Shown here in pieces: positions 7,631-45,241 of a stretch of 63,014 bases of DNA; position 1 is the stretch's first letter, and each line of letters begins with the position of its first letter. Under the pieces are notes generated by a model, which saw only the letters and a list, made by a program, of their open reading frames with translations, made no database searches and was not told where the DNA came from. Made by a program: the position numbers and the translations under genes. The DNA comes from Magnetococcales bacterium (GTDB lineage Bacteria > Pseudomonadota > Magnetococcia > Magnetococcales > Magnetaquicoccaceae): the NCBI GenBank assembly GCA_015231755.1, contig JADGAZ010000025.1:1-63014 (forward strand), given 5' to 3'.

Positions 7631-8011
7631 AAGAGCCTTATCGGATGTCGTGTTTGGTTCGTGTTTGAGAAGACGGTCCGCGACCGGTCTACGCGCCCTG
7701 CGGATTGAGTCCGGTTTATTTTGCAATAAATGAGCCATTCCAATCCTTGACGCCTCTCTTTTTGGAGCATCCGTTTCAATTATGGTAAGCCAAAGCCGGG
7801 GGTTCTTCAAGCGTTCGGGCCGGGATCGGCCTTATATCGGGGAAAAAAGAAAAACGGGGTGGGGGAAGGTTGGGCGATGCCTTCCATCACAGCGGCGTCA
7901 TCGCCGTGTGGGAGGGGTCTGCGAGGCATGGATGTTTTTGGCCTTGCGACCCAAAAGGCTTCTTGGAACAGCAGGTTCCTTCAGGCGATGCCATGGAGTC
8001 CGGAAGGGGAC
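7631..8011. other. Intergenic region between the RelA/SpoT-like and SPOR genes
   Basis: About 380 bp without a convincing gene. Apart from the sigma-54-like site at 7722-7738, only short inverted repeats are seen, such as GGAAC/GTTCC near 7965-7979, a few tens of bases past the RelA-like stop, which might act as a weak terminator. Nothing else is recognised. Confidence 0.5.
7722..7738 (-). promoter_or_regulatory. Sigma-54-like promoter for the SPOR-ccm operon
   Basis: Read on the minus strand, TGGCTC (7737-7732), five bases, then TTGC (7726-7723) match the sigma-54 -24/-12 consensus TGGCAC-N5-TTGC at 9 of 10 positions, with the invariant GG and GC correctly spaced. The predicted start lies about 80 nt before the SPOR gene. 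The rest of the 7631-8011 gap holds no recognisable gene. Confidence 0.45.
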
Positions 8012-9256
8012 TCAGGGCGAGAGATGTTCTTGTAAACATTCGATCAGTTCGGTGGAGATGCCGGTGATGGTGGGATCGTTTTCAAAGTGGTGGCGGGTGA
8101 TGAACTGAAAGACCGTGTTGGTGTGGCCGGTCTTGGCCGCCAGGACGCAGCTGACCACCAACAAGGTGACGCCACGGGAGATGTGTTCGTATTTGGCGGT
8201 GGCCGGGTCGCCGAACAGAATCCGGGCAAAGGGCTTGATCAATTTTTCGTTGTGGCGGATCAACTCTCCGGCTTCCATCACATTGGGGATGTCCAGATGG
8301 CAGCAGACTTCGGTGAGGGTGATGATGCTCTGGGTCTTGAAAATCAACCGGGTGTCGTAGTGGTCGGCGATTTTGCGGTCATAGGCGTTGATCAAACGGT
8401 TGTCCAGCACAAAGCGCTCCATATCCTCCTGACGGATCAGGCAGGCTGTGGGCGGTTTTTCCAGCAGGCCCGGCTTGGGGGTCTGGGGCGGGGCGTTTTT
8501 TGGGGGGGGTGGCGCGATATTTCTGGCCTCGTCTCCCAGGGGAATGGGCTCGAAGGGCAGATCCGGCAGGGGAGGCAGGGTGTCACTCGCCTCGAATCCC
8601 GCATCCACATGACGGGTCGCCTTTTTGGCGTGATGGGCGAAGGGCTTGATCTGGTTGAGTTCCAGATCCGCCAGCTCGAACAGGGAGGTGACCCGGGCAT
8701 ACTCCCGTTGTTTGTGGGGCGGGCAGTGTTCCCGGGTCTGAAAGCCCAGGTGCTTGTTGATCTCCAGCCAGGCGTGCTGCAACACCGAACGGATTTGCAA
8801 CTCCACCAAGAAACCCCGGAAACGACGGTATTCGATCAGCTCCAAGCGGTTGTCCAGTAGTCCCACCTGGAGGTTGGTGGAGGTGTAACCGAACCGGTTG
8901 GGATCGCTGGTTTGGGATTTGGGCTGTTCCGGAGAGGCGAACACATTGAACTCCCGCCGGATGATCTCCGAGATGACCTGCACCTCCTCCTCGAAATAGG
9001 TGATGATGCGAATGCCCGCGATATCCGGCACGTCGTTGAGGGTGGCATAGGGTTCTTTCGGACTCTGGAGCTTGTCGACCAGACTCTCCTTTTCCTTGAT
9101 GCGACCGACAATCGAATGGATCTTCGGACCATCGGGCACGATGAACTCCTTGATCAGCGTCAGGGTCCGATCCAGGAAATCCTGATAGGTTTTCTTTTGC
9201 TGGTCGTATTGCAGGAGGATCTTGTCGATCAACACCGAGTCGAGTGGCTTCATCAT
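8012..9256 (-). CDS. RelA/SpoT-domain protein with novel C-terminal region
   Basis: 414 residues. Residues about 5-200 resemble the (p)ppGpp synthetase fold of small alarmone synthetases. IVGRIKEKESLVDKL matches the substrate-binding start. DVPDIAGIRIITYF holds the Mg-binding Asp and the Arg, and VELQIRSVLQHAWLEINKHL holds the catalytic Glu. The substrate loop usually written GYRSxH is here GYTSTNL, with His replaced by Asn, so activity or substrate may differ. No HD hydrolase domain is present. A Pro-rich linker (about 228-285) leads to a roughly 125-residue C-terminal domain I do not recognise. The start is the ATG at 9256, preceded by GGAG. It lies 44 bp after ntrX and may belong to that transcript. 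Confidence 0.7.
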   Translation of the reverse strand: MMKPLDSVLIDKILLQYDQQKKTYQDFLDRTLTLIKEFIVPDGPKIHSIVGRIKEKESLVDKLQSPKEPYATLNDVPDIAGIRIITYFEEEVQVISEIIRREFNVFASPEQPKSQTSDPNRFGYTSTNLQVGLLDNRLELIEYRRFRGFLVELQIRSVLQHAWLEINKHLGFQTREHCPPHKQREYARVTSLFELADLELNQIKPFAHHAKKATRHVDAGFEASDTLPPLPDLPFEPIPLGDEARNIAPPPPKNAPPQTPKPGLLEKPPTACLIRQEDMERFVLDNRLINAYDRKIADHYDTRLIFKTQSIITLTEVCCHLDIPNVMEAGELIRHNEKLIKPFARILFGDPATAKYEHISRGVTLLVVSCVLAAKTGHTNTVFQFITRHHFENDPTITGISTELIECLQEHLSP

Positions 9257-9300: not shown

Positions 9301-10680
9301 TCAGTCCAACCCCAGTGTTTTCAACTTCCGGTGCAGCGCGGAGCGCTCCATGCCGATCACCTCGGCGGTGCGGGAGATGTTGCCATTGTGGCGCGCCAGC
9401 TGGGTCTTGAGGAAAATCCGTTCAAAGGCCACCCGGGCGTCCCGAAGATTTTCGTTTTCCAACAGGGTATCCCAGGGGGTATTGGTGGGGGTGGCGCCGG
9501 GTTTTTGATGGATGAAGGCGGGCAGATCCTCCGGATCGATCACCGTGCCCGGGGCCATGATCAGCAGCCGTTCCACCAGATTTTTCAACTCCCGCACATT
9601 GCCGGGCCAGTGGTACTGGGCCAGACAGGCCATGGCCGCCGCGGAAAAAGAGCGCGGTTGTGGCAGAGCGGCCTGATTGATCTTGAGAAAATAGTCCACC
9701 AGAGGTTTCAGATCCTCCAGTCGTTCCCGCAAGGGCGGAATGGCGATGGGGATGACATTCAGCCGGTAGAACAGATCCAGCCGGAAGCGGCCCTGATCGA
9801 TTTCGGTTTGCAGATCCTTGTTGGTGGCCGCGATCACCCGCACATCCACCTGGATCGAACGCCGTCCCCCCACCCGCTCGAAGCGGCGCTCCTGGAGGGC
9901 GCGCAGAATCTTGGCCTGGGTCTTGAGGGACATGTCGCCGATGGAGTCCAGAAACAAGGTACCTTTGTTGCTTTGTTCAAAGCGGCCCGCCTGGGTGATC
10001 TTTTGGCCGGTGGGACCGGTGGTTTCCAGGCCGAACAGTTCGATTTCGATGGACTCTTCCGGAATGGCCGCCGAATTGACCGCGATGAACGGTCCCGCCG
10101 CCCGGTTGGACAGGGCGTGCAGCCGTCGGGCCGCCACCTCCTTGCCGGTACCGTTATCGCCGGAGATCAACACCCAGCCTTCGGTGGGAGCCACCCGCAA
10201 CAGTTTTTCTTCCAGGACGCGCATGGCCGGGGAGTCCCCGATCATCGGCGGCACCGAGTCCATTTGGGCCTTGAGTTCCCGGTTTTCCCGCGCCAGATCG
10301 TAGGTGCGGATCGCCCGGTCCAGCAGCAACAACACCCGATCCAAAGAGAGGGGTTTTTCCAGGAAGTCATACGCACCTTCCTTGGTGGCGGAGACGGCGG
10401 TTTCGATGGTGCCGTGTCCCGACATCATGATCACCGGAATTTCCGTTTCCCGTGCGCGGTTTTTTTCCTGATTTTTGATGCGTCGCAGGGTTTCGATGCC
10501 GTCGATGCCGGTCATCCAGATGTCGAGGAGAATGGCCGCCACCTCGTATTGTTCCAAAACAGCCAGCCCCTCTTCCCCGGAGGCGGCCTCGATGACCGCG
10601 TACTCCTCGTCTTCCAGGATGCCCCGCAGGCTGGTGCGGATCGCCTCTTCGTCGTCGATGATCAGAATGGTTGGGTTCAT
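9301..10680 (-). CDS. ntrX: Nitrogen/redox response regulator NtrX
   Basis: 459 residues. The receiver domain (1-120) has acidic residues DDEE and phosphoacceptor Asp53 in LLDIWM. The AAA+ domain has Walker A GDNGTGKE and Walker B GTLFLD, with arginine-finger region VRVIAATNKDL. A C-terminal Fis-type helix-turn-helix follows (ISRTAEVIGMERSALHRKLKTLGLD). The sigma-54-contacting GAFTGA loop is absent (the region reads ETTGPTGQKITQAGRFEQ), as in alphaproteobacterial NtrX, so it probably does not remodel sigma-54 polymerase. It overlaps ntrY by 4 bp. Confidence 0.92.
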   Translation of the reverse strand: MNPTILIIDDEEAIRTSLRGILEDEEYAVIEAASGEEGLAVLEQYEVAAILLDIWMTGIDGIETLRRIKNQEKNRARETEIPVIMMSGHGTIETAVSATKEGAYDFLEKPLSLDRVLLLLDRAIRTYDLARENRELKAQMDSVPPMIGDSPAMRVLEEKLLRVAPTEGWVLISGDNGTGKEVAARRLHALSNRAAGPFIAVNSAAIPEESIEIELFGLETTGPTGQKITQAGRFEQSNKGTLFLDSIGDMSLKTQAKILRALQERRFERVGGRRSIQVDVRVIAATNKDLQTEIDQGRFRLDLFYRLNVIPIAIPPLRERLEDLKPLVDYFLKINQAALPQPRSFSAAAMACLAQYHWPGNVRELKNLVERLLIMAPGTVIDPEDLPAFIHQKPGATPTNTPWDTLLENENLRDARVAFERIFLKTQLARHNGNISRTAEVIGMERSALHRKLKTLGLD

Positions 10681-12911
10681 GGCAGTGGGATGTGCTCCTG
10701 ATCCGCAGCGTGGGACAGAACCGGGGCCGGAGTCGCCACCCCTTGAATCGGCAGGCGGATTTCGATCAGCGCGCCATTCCATTGGGATTGGCGGATCCGG
10801 ATGGTGCCACCGTGATCCTCGATGATTTTCTTGACGATGGCCATGCCCAATCCGACTCCCGTGGCCTTGGTGGTGAAGTAGGGTTCAAAAATGCGGTCCC
10901 GGTCGCCGGGGGGGATGCCGGAACCCGAGTCGGCGATCTGAATGCGCACCCAGTCGCCATTGTCCGTAACCTCGGTGGAAATGGCAAGAAAACTCGATTC
11001 GTTGCGTTCGCGAATGGCCGCCATGGCGTTGGAGACCAGATTGGTGAACACCTGTTTGATTTGTCCCCGGTCGTGGGAAAACAGGGGCAGATCCGGGGTG
11101 AACTCCGTGGTGACGGTGATTTTTTCCAATTCGGCCCGGTGCAGCAGCAACACCTCCCGAATGCCGGTGTGCAGGTCATTGGGGGTGAGTTCGGGTCTGG
11201 GCAGACGGGCAAAGGTGGAAAATTCGTTGACCAGTACCCGCAACTCCTCCACCTGATTGATGATGGCATTGGTGCCGTCGTCCAGCACCTGCCAATCCGG
11301 GCAGGTGTCGGTTTGATGTTTCATGTATTTGCGGCGCAGACGCTGGGCCCATAACTGGATCGGGGTGAGGGGGTTTTTGATTTCATGGGCGATGCGGCGG
11401 GCCACTTCGCTCCAGGCCCGGCTGCGTTGCGCCAAGAGAATGTCGGAGATGTCGTCGAAGGTGGCGATGAAGCCGTGACTGACCCCGGCGCCGTCATCCA
11501 GGGGGGTGACCCGGGCCATCAGGGTACGGGTACGGTCCGCGCCTTGGATTTGCATCTGGAACTGGGTGGCGTTTTCTTCGGAGCCGTTCGGATTGGTTTG
11601 GGAGGCCCGTCGGGAATTGCTTTGGGCCAGGGGGGTGAGCATGGATTCCGGGAGCAGGGCGCGGTAGTGGTGACCGATGGCCTGTTGACTGTCGATGCCC
11701 AGCAGCATGCCGGCGGCGGGGTTCATGAGGGTGATCTCCCCCCCCCGGTTGACGCTGATCACCCCGGCGGAGATGTGCTGCACGATGGCGGCCATGAAAT
11801 GGCGTCGTTCTTCCAGCAAGGCGTTGGTGGCTTGGAGTTCGTCGTGGTTTTCCTGGAGCTTGCGGGTCATGGCGTTGAAGGCGGCCATGAGGGTGGCCAG
11901 TTCGTCGTTGCCGGTGACCGACAAGGTGACGGTCAGATCTCCGATGGCCACCTTGCGGGCACCGACGATCAATTCGGCGATGGGATCGGTCAGGTCGTCG
12001 GCCAGGCGGAATCCCGACCAGATGGCCGCCAGAATCAGCAGCAGGGCGATCAGAGCCAAAGTGACGGTATGGTTGGCCTTGAGCAGTCCGTGGGAGGCGC
12101 GCAGATTGCGGTAGTCCACGTAGACCGCTTCGGTGGTCTCCAACTGGCCAAGGATTTGACGGTCGATCCAATGGCCGGTGGAAAGCACATAATTGTCGTC
12201 CAGGGGGACAAAGGCCCGCACCCGGTCTCCGGCATCGCTGGTGACCACCAACGCCTTGGAGGCTCCTTCCATGAGGGCGTCCAGGTCGGGGAGGGGATCG
12301 AAGGGCAGTTCTCCGGCCCGGGCGATGCGGGTGCCGTCCGGACGCAGAATGGCCACCTCGTCCAGACCCCGGGCGGTGCGTTCCACCTCCAGGACCGCGG
12401 AGAGGGCCTCATCGTCATCCAGGGTCAAAGAGGAGGCCACGGCCCGGTTGCGCACGATGCCTTCGGCGTCGTGGCGCACATTGCGTTGGCTCTCCCGGTA
12501 GTAGGAGCGGGAGACATCCAGGGCCGTGTCCATGGCCCGGGAGATCCGGTCGGAAAACCAGGAGTCCACCCCCCGGTTGAGAAAGTTGACCGACAGGATG
12601 GCGATGATCAGGGTGGGCAGCAGGGAGAGGGCCACGAACATCAGGGCCATGCGGGTCCGGAGCATGGAGCCGGTGCGTCGTTGTCTGCGGTCGAGCCAGA
12701 GCCGGAAGATGTGGCGCAGCACCAGAAAGCCCAGCGCCAGCGCCAGAAACAGGTTGACGTAGAGCAGAATCAGGAACGCCACCCCATAGTCGCCACTGCC
12801 CACAGCGGCGGCGCCCCGCAATCCCTGGGCCGTCAAGAAGGTGATGGTGGCCACCACCACCAGCACCAGCACCAGATACCACAGACGAAACGGTTGAAAG
12901 AACGGTTTCAT
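10677..12911 (-). CDS. ntrY: Membrane sensor kinase NtrY
   Basis: 744 residues. Membrane helices at the N-terminus (three within about 1-100) and another near 290 flank a periplasmic domain. HAMP, PAS, HisKA and HATPase_c domains follow. The H-box is VARRIAHEIKNPLTPIQL (about residue 508), and the ATP-binding boxes include FTNLVSNAMAAI, DSGSGIPPGDRDRIFEPYFTTK and GVGLGMAIVKKI. It pairs with NtrX in nitrogen, redox or envelope control depending on the species. It starts 4 bp inside the DUF4390 stop and ends in ATGA with ntrX. Confidence 0.93.
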   Translation of the reverse strand: MKPFFQPFRLWYLVLVLVVVATITFLTAQGLRGAAAVGSGDYGVAFLILLYVNLFLALALGFLVLRHIFRLWLDRRQRRTGSMLRTRMALMFVALSLLPTLIIAILSVNFLNRGVDSWFSDRISRAMDTALDVSRSYYRESQRNVRHDAEGIVRNRAVASSLTLDDDEALSAVLEVERTARGLDEVAILRPDGTRIARAGELPFDPLPDLDALMEGASKALVVTSDAGDRVRAFVPLDDNYVLSTGHWIDRQILGQLETTEAVYVDYRNLRASHGLLKANHTVTLALIALLLILAAIWSGFRLADDLTDPIAELIVGARKVAIGDLTVTLSVTGNDELATLMAAFNAMTRKLQENHDELQATNALLEERRHFMAAIVQHISAGVISVNRGGEITLMNPAAGMLLGIDSQQAIGHHYRALLPESMLTPLAQSNSRRASQTNPNGSEENATQFQMQIQGADRTRTLMARVTPLDDGAGVSHGFIATFDDISDILLAQRSRAWSEVARRIAHEIKNPLTPIQLWAQRLRRKYMKHQTDTCPDWQVLDDGTNAIINQVEELRVLVNEFSTFARLPRPELTPNDLHTGIREVLLLHRAELEKITVTTEFTPDLPLFSHDRGQIKQVFTNLVSNAMAAIRERNESSFLAISTEVTDNGDWVRIQIADSGSGIPPGDRDRIFEPYFTTKATGVGLGMAIVKKIIEDHGGTIRIRQSQWNGALIEIRLPIQGVATPAPVLSHAADQEHIPLP

Positions 12912-13477
12912 GGCAGTTCCGACAGATGGGTGAAATCCATGGATTGGTTCAGAGTCAGCCAGCGATCCAGGAGCCGGAACATGCGGGACATTCCTTCCTG
13001 GGTGATCGAGACCCGGGTTTGCAGTTGGTAATGGACGCCCGGAAGCGGTTTGAAGCGGGAGTGCAGCAGAATGAAGCGGGGATTGGCGAAAAAGCTCATG
13101 GCTTCGTCTTCGTCGCTGGTATAGTGAACCAGACTGCTGTTTTCCTCCCGCAGTTCGTAGCGTTCGGTGATCAGGCGCATACGGATGTGACGCTGGATCT
13201 CTTTGTCCAGGATGCGGACATTCGGCAGCCACTCATGCAGGCGCATCACGGTGAAACGATAGGTGGCCAACAGGGGGTCGCCCTGTTTGAGTTGCAGTTC
13301 GATTTTGTCCTGGAACGTCGGGTTCAAGGAGACCTGGGCGAAGAGCTTATCGCTTTGGAAGACCGGGCTGGCCTCTTGGATGACGGGTGTGTTCTCGGGG
13401 AGAGGATCCCTCCCGCACCCGGAAAGCAGGATCGCCAGCAGGGCGATCCAGGCTGTCACGGGGCGGGAGGGGATCAA
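12908..13477 (-). CDS. DUF4390 lipoprotein upstream of ntrY
   Basis: About 189 residues. The N-terminus has a lipoprotein signal (VTAWIALLAILLSGC) with Cys near residue 22. The remaining beta-rich domain (QVSLNPTFQDKIELQLKQGDPLLATYRFTVMRLHEW) matches the DUF4390 family, which is often found next to ntrYX. No catalytic motif is evident. The start is uncertain: a TTG at 13477 gives a well-formed signal peptide, a GTG at 13459 is an alternative, and neither has a strong ribosome site. It starts 17 bp after lpxC and overlaps ntrY by 4 bp. Confidence 0.8.
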   Translation of the reverse strand: MIPSRPVTAWIALLAILLSGCGRDPLPENTPVIQEASPVFQSDKLFAQVSLNPTFQDKIELQLKQGDPLLATYRFTVMRLHEWLPNVRILDKEIQRHIRMRLITERYELREENSSLVHYTSDEDEAMSFFANPRFILLHSRFKPLPGVHYQLQTRVSITQEGMSRMFRLLDRWLTLNQSMDFTHLSELP

Positions 13478-13493: not shown

Positions 13494-14426
13494 TCACATG
13501 GAGAAGGCGACGGCGGCCTGGCGCACCCGGGGCACGGCGGTCGGGACATATTCCGCGAAAGAGGCATGTTCGGTGGACTCCACCAACTCCCAGGCATCGG
13601 TGCGGGCCAGGAGTTTGCGCAAAAGAAGGTTGTTCATGGCGTGGCCGGAGCGGACACCCTTGAAGTGGCCGAGAATCGGACGGCCCAGCAGATAGAGGTC
13701 TCCGATGGCGTCGATGATCTTGTGACGCACGAACTCTTTTTCGTAGCGCAAGCCCCCTTCGTTGAGGATTCGGAAGTCGCCGATGACGATGGCGTTATCC
13801 AGGGAGCCTCCCCGGGCCAGACCGTTGGCCCGCAGGGTTTCCAGATCCTTGAGGAATCCGAAGGTCCGGGCCCGGCTGATGTCCTTGATGAAGGTGGTTT
13901 CGGTGATGTCGATTTCCACGCCCTGCTCGGCGAGCAAAGGGTGATCGAAATCGATGTGGAAGCTCAAGCGGAACTGGTCGCAGGGGTGGAACGAGGCCCG
14001 TTTGTTTTCGTGGGAAACCGAAATGGATTTCTTGATGCGCAACCACTTTTTGGCGACCCGTTGTTCCACGATGCCGGCACACTGGATCAAAAAGACGAAC
14101 GGAGCGGCGCTGCCATCCATGATCGGCACTTCCGGGCTGTCCAGGTCCACGTAGGCGTTGTCCACACCCAGGCCCGCGAACGCGGCCAGGAGGTGTTCCA
14201 CGGTGGAGACTTTGGCCCCATCGGCGTTGGCGATGGTGGAGCACAGTTGGGTATCCACCACATTTTCCACCCGGGCCGGGATCAGCGCCCCCCCCAGGTC
14301 GATGCGGTGGAAGACGATGCCGGTGTTTTCCGGCGCCGGTCGCAAGGAGAGATAGACCTTGTTGCCTCCATGGAGGCCGATCCCGGTGCAACGGATGGTG
14401 TTCTTGAGTGTGCGTTGAAAAACCAT
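13494..14426 (-). CDS. lpxC: UDP-3-O-acyl-N-acetylglucosamine deacetylase LpxC
   Basis: 310 residues, normal for LpxC. It is the zinc hydrolase for the first committed step of lipid A synthesis in the cytosol. Zinc ligands are visible in [14 protein letters not shown] and in [15 protein letters not shown] (HxxxD), and the catalytic His lies in RSGHAMNN. In many bacteria lpxC sits just after ftsZ. Here it does too, but a terminator and its own promoter separate the two, and it heads a unit with DUF4390-ntrY-ntrX. Confidence 0.97.
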
Positions 14427-14576
14427 GTCAGTAGGTTCCGTTAAATATGATCCATTGTTGGGACCCATTTTTTTCGGGCATTCATGGGAGATTTAGAGTT
14501 CTTGAGTCGCGCTGGTGTCAATTTGACGGCGGCTGAGAGGCTCTGGCAACTCCCAATGTTTCGGTTATGCTGGTTA

Positions 14577-14594
14577 AAGCAAGTATAGTGCCAA
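14577..14594 (-). promoter_or_regulatory. Sigma-54 (-24/-12) promoter upstream of lpxC
   Basis: On the minus strand the sequence reads TTGGCAC (14594-14588), TATAC, then TTGCTT, an exact TGGCAC-N5-TTGC match with correct spacing. Transcription would start near 14568, about 140 nt before the lpxC ATG. The TATACT hexamer inside it could also serve as a sigma-70 -10 box, but no good -35 lies 16-18 nt upstream. The remaining 14427-14842 gap holds this promoter and the ftsZ terminator, nothing else recognised. Confidence 0.65.
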
Positions 14595-14727: not shown

Positions 14728-14766
14728 AAAAAAAGGCGGTCTCTTTGGATGTCGAGAGACCGCCTT
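14728..14766 (-). terminator. Rho-independent terminator after ftsZ
   Basis: A perfect 12-bp stem (AAGGCGGTCTCT at 14733-14744 with AGAGACCGCCTT at 14755-14766) has a 10-nt loop. On the minus strand it is followed by a run of Ts. It closes the dcw transcript about 75 nt after the ftsZ stop. Confidence 0.93.
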
Positions 14767-14842: not shown

Positions 14843-16075
14843 TCAGTCCATCTGGCGACGCAAGAAGGTGGGGATGTCGAAGGTGTCTTCGTTGTTGGAT
14901 TGTTCGATGCCGCCGTTGTAGTCATCCATGTTTTTGCTGGCGCGGCGGAAGGGACGGACCACCGTGGATTTTTTGGGATCCGTGGTGTCGTTCAGACCGA
15001 TGTCCTTGCCTGGGGGGGTGACGGCTTTGTAACCGGGACGGGGGGCGGGTTGTTTGTTGGTGGTTTGATTCTTGGGGGAGGAGAGGTTTTCCTTGGTGGG
15101 GAAGGCGACCTGTTCCGCGCCGCCGATGCCGGTAGCCACGACCGTGACCCGGACCGAATCCTCCATGGATTCGTCGAGGACGGCCCCGACCACGATGATG
15201 GCGTCGTCGTGGACCATGTCCTTGACCACCGTAACCGCCTCATCCACCTCCTGGAGGGCCAGATTGTAGCCGCCGGTGATGTTGATGAGCACGCCCCGGG
15301 CACCATGAATGGAGATTTCATCCAGCAACGGGCTGGAGATGGCCTGGGTGGCGGCATCCAGGGCGCGGGTATCGCCGGTGGCCTCTCCGGCGCCCATCAG
15401 GGCGTGACCCATTTCGTTCATGACCGTGCGCACGTCGGCGAAGTCCACGTTGACCAGACCGGTGATGGTGATCAGGTCGGTGATGCCCCGGACCGCCTGC
15501 AACAGCACGTCGTCGGCCTTGCGGAAGGCTTCGAGGATGGTGGTGTTCTTGCCGACGATGCTCAGGAGTTTCTGGTTGGGGATGGTGATGACCGTATCCA
15601 CGTGATCCCGCAGTTGTTTAAGTCCCTCTTCGGCGTACTGGAGGCGACGGCGACCCTCGAAGCCGAAAGGCTTGGTGACCACGGCCACGGTCAGGATGCC
15701 CATCTCCTTGGCCAACTGGGCGATTACCGGAGCGGCGCCGGTTCCGGTGCCGCCGCCCATGCCGGCGGTGATGAAGACCATGTCCGCCCCTTCCAGGGAC
15801 TCCTTGATGCTTTCGCGGCTCTCCTCGGCGGAGCGCATGCCCACTTCGGGCTTGGCGCCGGCCCCGAGTCCACGGGTGATGTTGACGCCGATCTGCAGAC
15901 GGGTCGGCGCCAGATTACGGGCCAACGCCTGGGCATCGGTGTTGGCCACGATGAATTCCACCCCTTCGAGTTGGGCCTGAATCATGTTGTTGATGGCATT
16001 GCCACCGCCACCGCCGACGCCGATAACCTTGATGATCTGCAACGGTTCCGCTGTCGTCTCGAATTCAATGGCCAT
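14843..16075 (-). CDS. ftsZ: Cell division GTPase FtsZ
   Basis: 410 residues. The tubulin-like protein that forms the division ring. The GTP-binding signature [14 protein letters not shown] and the T7 loop [11 protein letters not shown] (synergy Asp) are intact. A Pro/Lys-rich variable linker (about 320-395) leads to the conserved C-terminal peptide [11 protein letters not shown], which docks on FtsA and ZipA. It is the last gene of the dcw cluster. Confidence 0.98.
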
Positions 16076-41738: not shown

Positions 41739-43163
41739 TCAGGGGGTGCGCGCCCGTCCCGAAAGCCGGTAGTTGAGGGTTTGGCGGCTGATTCCCAGCA
41801 ATGTGGCCGCGATTCCCTGATTGTTGCCCGCTCGGCGCAACGCTTCGCGGATCAGATAGCCTTCCGCATCCTTCAGGGTGGGGAACCGTCCGGGGATCTC
41901 CAGGTGGGGGCCTTCTTCTTCCGGATCCTGGCCCGCTTCCGGGGTGGTTCGCTGAGTCTGGATGACCTCCTTGAAACTCTCCATGGAGAGGACCGGACCA
42001 AAACGGTGTCGTGCCACCGCGTTGAAAATCAGGGCGCGCAGTTCCCGCACGTTGCCTGGGAAATGATACACCGACAACAGGGTATACAGTTCCGCCGGCA
42101 CCCTCAGACCGTGTTTGTCCATGGTGGAGGTGGCCTCTTGGAGAAAGAAGTCGATCAGCAGTGGCAGATCGTCGGCCCGTTTGCGCAAGGGGGGAATCTC
42201 CAGGGGGTGGCTGGAGAGCCGGAAGAACAGATCCTGCCGGAAGAGTCCCTTGGTCATGAGTTGTTGCAGGTTGCGGTTGGTGGCGGTGATGATGCGGGCA
42301 CGGCTGATTTTGGGAATGTCCGAGCCCAGGGGATAGTAGGTGCCATCCTGCAACAGTCGGAGCAGTTTTACCTGGGAGGCGGCGGTCAGATCGCCGATTT
42401 CGTCGAGAAACAGGGTCCCCGAGGTGGCCTGGGTGATCAATCCCTCCCGATCCTTTTCCGCGCCGGTGAAGGCTCCCTTCATGTGGCCGAAGAGGGTATC
42501 GGAGAACATGGTGTCGTCGAGTCCGGCGACGTTGACGGTCACCATGCGACCGGAGCGTTGGCTTAAATGGTGGATGGCGCCGGCGATCATCTCCTTGCCT
42601 ACCCCGGTTTCCCCGGTGATCAGGGCCGGTTCCGGGGATTCGGCGATGGCTTCGATGTATTGAAACACCGAGATCATCTTGCCGTGGCGGGTGAGAATCG
42701 ACGCGAACGCTTCGGGATGTTTCAGTTTCTGGTTGAGCAGGCTGTGGCGCAACACTCCCACGTGACGGCGCAGCGTACAGACTTCCAGGGCGTGGCGCAC
42801 CGAAGAGACCAGACGACTCTCTTCCACGGGTTTGATCAGATAGTCGAAGGCGCCTTCCTTCATGCAACCGATGGCGGTTTCCACATCCTGGGAGGCGGTC
42901 ATCACCACCACCGGCAGCGCCGGATATTCCCGTACCAGGCGCATCAGCAGTTGCGTGCCGGGAAGATGCGGCATGATCAGGTCGAGGATCACCATGGCGG
43001 GAGGGGTCCGGGCGATGAACGCCATGGTCTCCCGGGGATCTTGCAAGGTGGCGACCGGTCCGATTCCATGGGCTTCCAGCAGATAACGGGTGGCGATCAG
43101 TTCGTCGGCTTCGTCATCCACAAACAGAACCAGAGGCTGGACGGAAAAGGTGGTCGTGTTCAT
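41739..43163 (-). CDS. NtrC-family sigma-54-dependent response regulator
   Basis: 474 residues. Receiver domain with DDEAD and phosphoacceptor Asp61 (VILDLIMPH). The AAA+ domain has Walker A GETGVGKE, an intact GAFTGA loop (GHMKGAFTGAEKDREG), Walker B GTLFLDEIGD, and RIITATNRNL. A Fis-type DNA-binding end follows (GNNQGIAATLLGISRQTLNYRLSG). Unlike NtrX at 9301, it can be expected to activate sigma-54 promoters. It overlaps the kinase gene by 4 bp (ATGA). Target genes are not evident; nos is upstream. Confidence 0.9.
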   Translation of the reverse strand: MNTTTFSVQPLVLFVDDEADELIATRYLLEAHGIGPVATLQDPRETMAFIARTPPAMVILDLIMPHLPGTQLLMRLVREYPALPVVVMTASQDVETAIGCMKEGAFDYLIKPVEESRLVSSVRHALEVCTLRRHVGVLRHSLLNQKLKHPEAFASILTRHGKMISVFQYIEAIAESPEPALITGETGVGKEMIAGAIHHLSQRSGRMVTVNVAGLDDTMFSDTLFGHMKGAFTGAEKDREGLITQATSGTLFLDEIGDLTAASQVKLLRLLQDGTYYPLGSDIPKISRARIITATNRNLQQLMTKGLFRQDLFFRLSSHPLEIPPLRKRADDLPLLIDFFLQEATSTMDKHGLRVPAELYTLLSVYHFPGNVRELRALIFNAVARHRFGPVLSMESFKEVIQTQRTTPEAGQDPEEEGPHLEIPGRFPTLKDAEGYLIREALRRAGNNQGIAATLLGISRQTLNYRLSGRARTP

Positions 43164-45241
43164 GCGGGATTGGACCGGAGGGGGAATACCGGGAGCGTGA
43201 CGGTGATGGTGGTCCCGTGGCCCGGTTGCGATGCGGTTTGGATGGTGCCGCCGTGACGACGCACGATATCCCAGACGATGGACAACCCCATGCCCAGTCC
43301 TCCTTGTTCCCCCTTGGTGGTAAAAAATGGGGTAAACATGTTGGCGATCTCCTGTTCCGTCATGCCAACGCCCTGGTCCATCACCTGGACAACCACCCAT
43401 TGTCCGTCTTCTGATGGCGCGCCGTCAAGCGTGACTGGTGATTTCCGATCCTGCAGCGACTCCAGGGAGTTGAGCACTAGGTTGAGAAAGAGTTGTTCGA
43501 GTTGCAGGGGATTGCCATGCACATCCGGCAACTCTGGCGGCAGGTTGACCTCGAAGTGGTCGGTATGTTTTTTGATGGGGTGCTGCATGATGGAAACGAT
43601 GTTGCGGATCGTCTTGTGGAGGTCGACCCGGCTGAAACGGGTGTCGGGGTCCGGTTTTGCCATATGTTTGAGATTGTTGACAATACCTGTAATGCGCCGG
43701 GAGTTGGACAGAATGCTTTCCATCAGACCGGGAAGCATCTCCAGGGCGTGATCCACGGGGACGCCCCCCAGGGAGAACTCTCCATGTTCCAGCCGGTATT
43801 GGCGCAACACCGCGGCCATGTCTGGCCAACCGCGTGTCAGGGCCACAATGTTGAACTGGATGGTGTTGTTGGGATTATTGATCTCGTGGGCCATGCCTGC
43901 CGCCAGCACCCCCAGGGAGGCCAACCGGGCATAACGGACCGCCTGTTCTTGTTGGGTGTGTTCTTCGGTGATGTCGGAGGTGAGAATCATCACTTCCGCG
44001 ATGTCGCCTTCGGTGCGGATGGGCACGAAACGCACCTCCCGCCATTGGGTGTCGGAGAAAGGATACTGGAAGTGATCCATCTCCCCGGAGGTGTAAACCT
44101 TGTGCAGCGCCTGGAAATACCAGTCGCGCACTTCCGCGTGTTCATCCCCGAACAGATCTCCCAGCACCCGCACTTCGGGACGGTTGGCCAACAGCACCTT
44201 GCCGTGACGGTCCACGGTCAGGATCGTGTCCGGATATTGATTGAACACAATGCGCAGCTTGATGGCCGACTGTTTCAGCTCCGCGTACAGACGGTTCTTT
44301 TCGTTCAGATTGTGTTCCATGTGCAGCAGAAACATCACCAGGATGGTGGTGATGATCAGTCCCCCCGCCCCGATCAGCCAGGGTGTGTGGGGAAACTCCT
44401 CGCCGCTCAACAGGTGCTTCGACGGAATGGCGTTGATGATCCAGCGTTTGTTCGCCACCGGAACGGTTTCGCGCATGACGTAAGGCTGTCGAGCGAGCCA
44501 GTCTTTCCAGTTGGAGGCGTTCACCAGTTGTTCGGGTTTGGCTTCCAGACGGCTGTAGTAGGAGTCGAGAAACCGTTCCTGACCCTGTTCATCCGGTTCC
44601 AGAATCAGGATCTGCACGCCTCTGGGTTCCAGGAGCCGGATCGCCTGCTGCACCAGTTCTTCCAAGTCGAACACCCCCAGCAGCACGCCCCGTGTCTGGT
44701 GTTCGGAGAGGCCGTCGGGAGGGTGGCGCAGCGGCACGACCACCACGAATTCCTCGATCATCTCCCCGGATGGCTTGGGGTGGAACAGGGTGGTCACCGT
44801 GATTTCCTCCCGGTTCTGGGCGTGCTGGAACAACGGCATCAAGGACGTGTCGGTCTGGAAGTCATGTTCTTTCGGAAAGATGGAATGGGTGCGGTGGGCG
44901 CGCAGCGGTTGGGCGGCATGGACCCCGAACTGGGGAATCCAGATCAACTCCCGGATGCCGTGAACCTTGGAGAAAAAGGTGTGGGCCAGTTGGGTGAACT
45001 CCATCAGGGAGGCGTCCCGGGCGCGCAGCAGATCCCCCAGGATATCCACCACATGGATGGCTTCGTTCAGTTCCCGTTGCAAGGCGCCGACCCGATCCTT
45101 GGCCAGCCAGTGGAACTCCAGGCGGGAGTGGTTTGCCAGTTGGGTGTGCAGGGCGGTGAAGGCCAGCAAAGACAGAATCACACCCAGCACCGCGATGCCC
45201 AGGATCGTCCGGTGCATGGTGGCGGGTCCGATTGAATACAT
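43160..45241 (-). CDS. Membrane sensor histidine kinase with CHASE-like sensor and PAS domains
   Basis: 693 residues. Two membrane helices (about 11-32 and 290-312) enclose a roughly 255-residue extracytoplasmic domain. Its features (LIWIPQFG, EEFVVVVPLRHP, GVLLGVFDLEELVQQAI) recall CHASE sensor domains. A PAS domain (about 330-445) is followed by HisKA with H-box ASLGVLAAGMAHEINNPNN (His near 450) and HATPase_c with FLNLVLNSLESL, DQGVGMTEQE and GGLGMGLSIVWDIV. Start M1 or M9 (45217); neither has a strong ribosome site. It begins 6 bp after the SIS gene and couples to the regulator. Confidence 0.85.
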   Translation of the reverse strand: MYSIGPATMHRTILGIAVLGVILSLLAFTALHTQLANHSRLEFHWLAKDRVGALQRELNEAIHVVDILGDLLRARDASLMEFTQLAHTFFSKVHGIRELIWIPQFGVHAAQPLRAHRTHSIFPKEHDFQTDTSLMPLFQHAQNREEITVTTLFHPKPSGEMIEEFVVVVPLRHPPDGLSEHQTRGVLLGVFDLEELVQQAIRLLEPRGVQILILEPDEQGQERFLDSYYSRLEAKPEQLVNASNWKDWLARQPYVMRETVPVANKRWIINAIPSKHLLSGEEFPHTPWLIGAGGLIITTILVMFLLHMEHNLNEKNRLYAELKQSAIKLRIVFNQYPDTILTVDRHGKVLLANRPEVRVLGDLFGDEHAEVRDWYFQALHKVYTSGEMDHFQYPFSDTQWREVRFVPIRTEGDIAEVMILTSDITEEHTQQEQAVRYARLASLGVLAAGMAHEINNPNNTIQFNIVALTRGWPDMAAVLRQYRLEHGEFSLGGVPVDHALEMLPGLMESILSNSRRITGIVNNLKHMAKPDPDTRFSRVDLHKTIRNIVSIMQHPIKKHTDHFEVNLPPELPDVHGNPLQLEQLFLNLVLNSLESLQDRKSPVTLDGAPSEDGQWVVVQVMDQGVGMTEQEIANMFTPFFTTKGEQGGLGMGLSIVWDIVRRHGGTIQTASQPGHGTTITVTLPVFPLRSNPA

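Follow-up and report, generated by a model that had tools for sequence, protein, structure and literature searches.

On the minus strand of the window, the whole 63,014-nt stretch of Magnetococcales DNA analysed, ftsZ (end at 14843) precedes lpxC, a DUF4390 gene, ntrY and ntrX. The start of lpxC (13494–14426; UDP-3-O-acyl-GlcNAc deacetylase, Pfam PF03331, E 4e-111) was placed by conservation: LpxC of relatives begins at a conserved 15-residue segment equivalent to 14426, the likely start, and the ATG at 14468 was rejected on this ground and because one relative, G003, has a stop within that extension. The DUF4390 gene (12908–13477; PF14334, E 2e-15) encodes a putative lipoprotein with the lipobox LLSGC and starts at a TTG at about 13477, 16–17 nt past the lpxC stop. 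The sensor kinase gene ntrY spans 10677–12911 (NtrY_N, HAMP, PAS, HisKA and HATPase domains) and the response regulator gene ntrX spans 9301–10680, and in both cases the ATG, at 12911 and 10680, respectively, overlaps the stop of the gene before it in an ATGA. The order ftsZ-lpxC-DUF4390-ntrY-ntrX is conserved in the Magnetococcales loci with enough sequence, with two exceptions (L123 and L121), where DUF4390-ntrYX lies away from lpxC. ntrYX stands beside lpxC in none of the outgroup loci, which comprise 53 loci of other Proteobacteria, one of them filed as Verrucomicrobia. The initial annotation had taken the tight spacing to suggest cotranscription with lpxC, and the conserved order and the ATGA overlaps agree with it; on sequence grounds, cotranscription of lpxC, DUF4390, ntrY and ntrX is supported. 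Genus g1 alone has a further minus-strand gene (8012–9253), about 45 nt past ntrX, that encodes a RelA/SpoT-fold protein (YjbM-like in the PDB, E 6e-10), possibly a small alarmone-synthetase-like protein and the product of a fifth operon gene.

The ftsZ–lpxC gap contains a rho-independent terminator of ftsZ (14728–14766, minus strand), recognised by eye, with a 10–12 bp stem (14766–14755 with 14744–14733), a 10-nt loop and a T7 tract; a terminator scan limited to loops of up to 8 nt does not list it. Thus, a separate promoter is required for lpxC, and the sigma-54-like element reported before it does lie past the terminator. This element, P2, reads TTGGCAC-TATAC-TTGCTTTAA on the minus strand between ftsZ and lpxC. 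Its core TGGCAC-N5-TTGC (14579–14593) presents GG at -24, GC at -12 and the 5-nt spacer between TGGCAC and TTGC. Sigma-54 promoters are recognised at -24 and -12 and start 12 nt downstream; the predicted +1 lies near 14567, with a predicted leader of about 141 nt. The element had been described as 140 nt before lpxC; the distance from the LpxC start at 14426 back to the C of the -12 element is 153 nt.

A sigma-70-like promoter, P1 (14633–14669, minus strand), is predicted from TTTTTTCCTT (14669–14660), a 21-nt gap and TATATT (14638–14633), and its predicted start precedes the -24 element of P2 by about 33 nt in the window. In the alignment, TTTTTTCCTT, a gap of exactly 21 nt and TAYNAT occur in every g1 and g2 genome and, with minor variants, in G028 and G024; the spacing is constant across the family, and the gap is 22 nt in G037 and G025. 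P1 and P2 are far more widely spaced in G028 and thus constitute separate elements. Because the hexamer 17 nt before the P1 -10, TTCTCC, is a poor -35, the sigma-70 identity of P1 is something we infer; P1 looks like a housekeeping promoter, and lpxC is probably dual-controlled. The proposal that lpxC is under enhancer-dependent control consequently holds in part: the sigma-54 site agrees with it, but a conserved promoter-like element just upstream speaks against purely enhancer-dependent expression. The predicted leader carries a TTGACACC element (14513–14521, minus strand), conserved in g1 except in G003 and repeated in g2, which may bind a regulator within the transcribed leader; it was rejected as the -35 of a third promoter, as no -10 was seen by eye at 16–18 nt. 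Up to three TGACACC copies occur in the lpxC leader of g2. The only Rfam match, a weak one to Xoo8 over the lpxC 5' coding region (26.7 bits, against a gathering threshold of 90), was taken as coding similarity.

An exact pattern search located TGGCACNNNNNTTGC a single time in the window, at 14579–14593 on the minus strand. This one exact TGGCAC-N5-TTGC compares with a mean of 0.23 in dinucleotide shuffles, at least one match arising in 22/100 shuffles, so that from the window alone chance would be possible. Similarly, two-mismatch versions of the core are no more frequent than expected by chance, and the exact match is by itself modest evidence. Genome-wide, exact-pattern counts of TGGCAYN5TTGC gave 27 matches versus 8 for a reversed control. 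Scoring with a -24/-12 position weight matrix, a hand approximation of the published consensus, was applied to the DNA before lpxC, and the top score of the ftsZ–lpxC gap exceeded those of 200/200 shuffles. As positive controls of the sigma-54 type, matching sites are present in the same genome upstream of a type IV pilin gene and of flagellar-rod flgF/G, gene classes often under sigma-54. No conserved activator-site block was seen upstream of P2 in the alignment, where the only conserved upstream block is P1, and NtrC-type enhancer patterns are not enriched.

Chance is excluded by the comparison with related genomes. lpxC was found in 36 of the 41 Magnetococcales genomes compared, and 28 of 35 relatives carry a -24/-12 site before it at a shuffle p ≤ 0.02. 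The search for such sites that had been recommended for related genomes revealed conservation, contrary to the outcome that had been named as refuting: 22 of 26 named Magnetococcales loci have the site at p ≤ 0.01 (median score 15.8), against 2 of the 53 outgroup loci under the same test (median score 3.4). A chance match preserved by close kinship would accord with the shuffled windows, but the site reappears in several families between which intergenic DNA otherwise hardly aligns, and it is rare in the outgroups, which leaves this explanation scarcely credible. On a FastTree phylogeny of FtsZ/LpxC/NtrY/NtrX, one clade with support 1.0, made up of 24 genomes from families f1, f8, f12 and f13, has the site without exception, and outside this clade it is patchy (G022, G018, G025) or, partly in f5, degenerate. 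Family f11 (MC-1-like), G019, G020 and G032 have lost it or retain it in degenerate form, although these possess rpoN; its loss from these rpoN-bearing lineages, and partly from f5, indicates that Magnetococcales can dispense with this control. rpoN was found in 39/41 genomes and is present in that of the window (PF04552 at G000 C18:50164, E 2e-66). G023, the sole genome over 90% complete without detectable rpoN (93% complete), also has no site, a co-absence in the expected direction in one case. In nWRX3bin12 (L121/L191), where ntrYX is located elsewhere, lpxC retains its -24/-12 element and none occurs within some 600 nt upstream of DUF4390; similarly, HA3dbin1 (L193) has no such site before its separate DUF4390-ntrYX. 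The site thus stays with lpxC when the operon is split, which argues that the promoter belongs to lpxC and that ntrYX is a passenger.

Across families, conservation covers TTGGYAY and [TG]TGC and does not include TATACT. This distribution bears on the suggestion that the element is a sigma-70 promoter, with TATACT as its -10 or TTGGCA as its -35, and that the sigma-54 match is a by-product. The TATACT hexamer is kept, as NATANT, within genus g1 only, where all genomes display 4–5 of 6 matches to TATAAT (TATACT, TATAGT, GATAAT or CATACT), whereas outside g1 the hexamer matches at 1–3 of 6 positions and TGGYAY..TTGC persists. With TTGGCA as a -35, the best -10 at 16–18 nt is mostly a 1–3/6 match; the promoter scan returned no sigma-70 site, and a separate conserved -10-like element is available upstream in P1. 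We consider a sigma-70 promoter at this position distinctly improbable. The invariable NATANT spacer of g1 makes an embedded -10 possible in that genus, where sigma-54 and sigma-70 holoenzymes might compete for the same 30 bp at overlapping promoters. However, inspection by eye showed no good -35 at a suitable spacing (GTTCAT or similar), a housekeeping start is already offered by P1 and the g1 genomes are close relatives, so that overlapping promoters appear unlikely. A further alternative is that the block is a regulator site, an NtrC/NtrX-type dyad GCA-N7-TGC, and no promoter. NtrX is encoded in the operon and GCAN7TGC is found 23 times versus 2.1 expected, but this count merely reflects the sigma-54 motif. 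Conservation is asymmetric, with TTGG on the left and no CCAA on the right, G028, G022 and G024 retain the -24/-12 element without GCA, and the published NtrX pattern GCAn9TGC (PMC7240162) is not enriched before lpxC (3 versus 2.3 expected); this alternative is highly improbable. The core described initially as an exact sigma-54 promoter is confirmed and conserved in relatives, and its identification as a genuine sigma-54 promoter before lpxC is supported by motif and conservation.

The protein encoded at 9301–10680 is NtrX-like, as its best NCBIfam match is NF051870 at 514 bits, below the curated cut-off of 600, and the domain order and the partner NtrY agree. Its L1 loop has GLETTGPTGQ in place of GAFTGA and its Walker B motif DS in place of DE. 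The lack of GAFTGA, pointed out earlier for this protein, extends to every NtrX of the order examined, and NtrX is very unlikely to be the P2 activator. The Walker B motif is DS or DA in the site-bearing clade and DE in families outside it. On the tree, this glutamate is lost in the same clade that has the lpxC site fixed; as this is one event, no causal claim is made. With NtrX excluded, the genome encodes about 19 activators that have either a GAFTGA-like loop or a full domain. Among them, the NtrC-type regulator at 41739 had been put forward as a candidate. The minus-strand region 41739–45241 encodes a response regulator and a kinase, and the regulator is part of a family of about seven paralogous TLFGHxxGAFTG proteins (L094–L100), which by sequence is a lineage expansion of sigma-54 activators. 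Its close orthologues (at least 77%) are confined to g1, with none in G003, G008, G024 and G029, and the site is present in G003 (98% complete), G024 and G029. This genus restriction, together with its place as one of seven paralogues, makes it unlikely as a dedicated activator. The tolB-linked regulator L089 and its paralogue L091 were also rejected, each being absent from site-keeping genomes. G003 encodes 11 PF00158 proteins, NtrX among them. By reciprocal best hit, six activators of the window genome are shared with G003, G024 and G029, namely L081, the FlbD-like L083, L085, NtrC (L086; TIGR01818, 598 bits, cut-off 559), the receiver-less 330-aa L087 and L094.

Apart from the lpxC site, the best intergenic match of the genome is TGGCACGAAGATTGC, an exact sigma-54 site in the tolB–pal gap (L194:6664–6678, minus strand; G000 C7:84663–84677), followed by pal-cpoB-queC-tilS-ftsH, genes named by eye from their sequences, CpoB by PF16331. 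It is kept in 8 of the 10 g1 genomes with data and not beyond g1. Downstream of it lies TTTACA-N18-GATTAT, a possible housekeeping promoter. A weaker element, TGGCTC-N5-TTGCA (7722–7737, minus strand), precedes a SPOR-domain gene, is kept in G006 and G010 and is a probable second sigma-54 site in the window. Elsewhere in the genome, TGGCAT-TTTTG-TTGC is located about 100 nt before dnaK (L072:1500–1520, plus strand). The tolB-pal and SPOR sites suggest an envelope regulon, and FtsH is known to degrade LpxC in E. coli (PMC12444477). A Magnetococcales sigma-54 envelope regulon, comprising lpxC-DUF4390-ntrYX in much of the order and, in one genus, pal-cpoB-queC-tilS-ftsH and the SPOR gene, under one activator and with NtrX feedback, is a tentative and rather doubtful extension. 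If it were true, a single activator would switch LPS synthesis together with its protease and with outer-membrane tethering, and an NtrX devoid of key ATPase and sigma-54 residues would act back on its own operon.

The preferred reading, to which we assign a probability of roughly 0.8, is that P2 is a functional sigma-54 (RpoN) promoter of lpxC-DUF4390-ntrY-ntrX, where P1 would provide basal and P2 induced output. Sigma-54 RNA polymerase would bind at about 14601–14567 as a closed complex, and transcription would start near 14567 only after remodelling by a GAFTGA-type enhancer-binding protein encoded elsewhere. lpxC is usually essential, and the sigma-70-like P1 would supply basal LpxC, expected to be essential here, with P2 adding output on an envelope or nutritional signal. 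The poised complex at P2 may also impede transcripts from P1. Through the presence of ntrYX in the same mRNA, the same signal would alter the amount of a cell-envelope two-component system.

In Desulfovibrio vulgaris, lpxC (DVU2917) is a target of the GAFTGA response regulator DVU2934 and is listed as sigma-54-dependent (PMC3333781, PMC4641369). There, as proposed for Magnetococcales, lpxC is under sigma-54; the regulator of D. vulgaris is known, its motif is kept in few Desulfovibrio only and no ntrYX operon is described, whereas Magnetococcales lpxC heads an ntrYX operon and has a second promoter. NtrYX lowers lpxC mRNA in Rhodobacter sphaeroides, apparently indirectly, and in Caulobacter (PMC7240162, PMC12444477), and Caulobacter NtrX also has no GAFTGA (PMC10274813). 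Thus, ntrYX is tied to lpxC in these species too, but no sigma-54 promoter is described for them, and in Magnetococcales lpxC and ntrYX form one predicted operon. A sigma-54 promoter has been predicted before lpxC of Leptospira interrogans (review, PMC12655853), likewise an in-silico -24/-12 element; this is a spirochaete, known by prediction only and with no described ntrYX link. More generally, sigma-54 promoters have been linked with LPS, lipoprotein and peptidoglycan genes by Francke et al. 2011 (PMC3162934), whose main text names neither lpxC, ntrX nor Magnetococcus. The literature searched contained no report combining a site conserved in much of the order, tandem promoters and an lpxC/ntrYX operon. 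Sigma-54 control of lpxC is known from Desulfovibrio, and the attached ntrYX and the tandem promoters set the Magnetococcales case apart.

The finding brings together in one operon the sigma-54 control of lpxC reported in Desulfovibrio and the NtrYX control of lpxC reported in alphaproteobacteria, and it allows the activator to be sought concretely. Several families have kept at lpxC a promoter type that depends on an activator ATPase to fire, which points to lpxC transcription as a real control point. lpxC encodes the key step of lipid A synthesis, and the dual promoters point to signal-controlled building of the outer surface in these magnetotactic-type bacteria.
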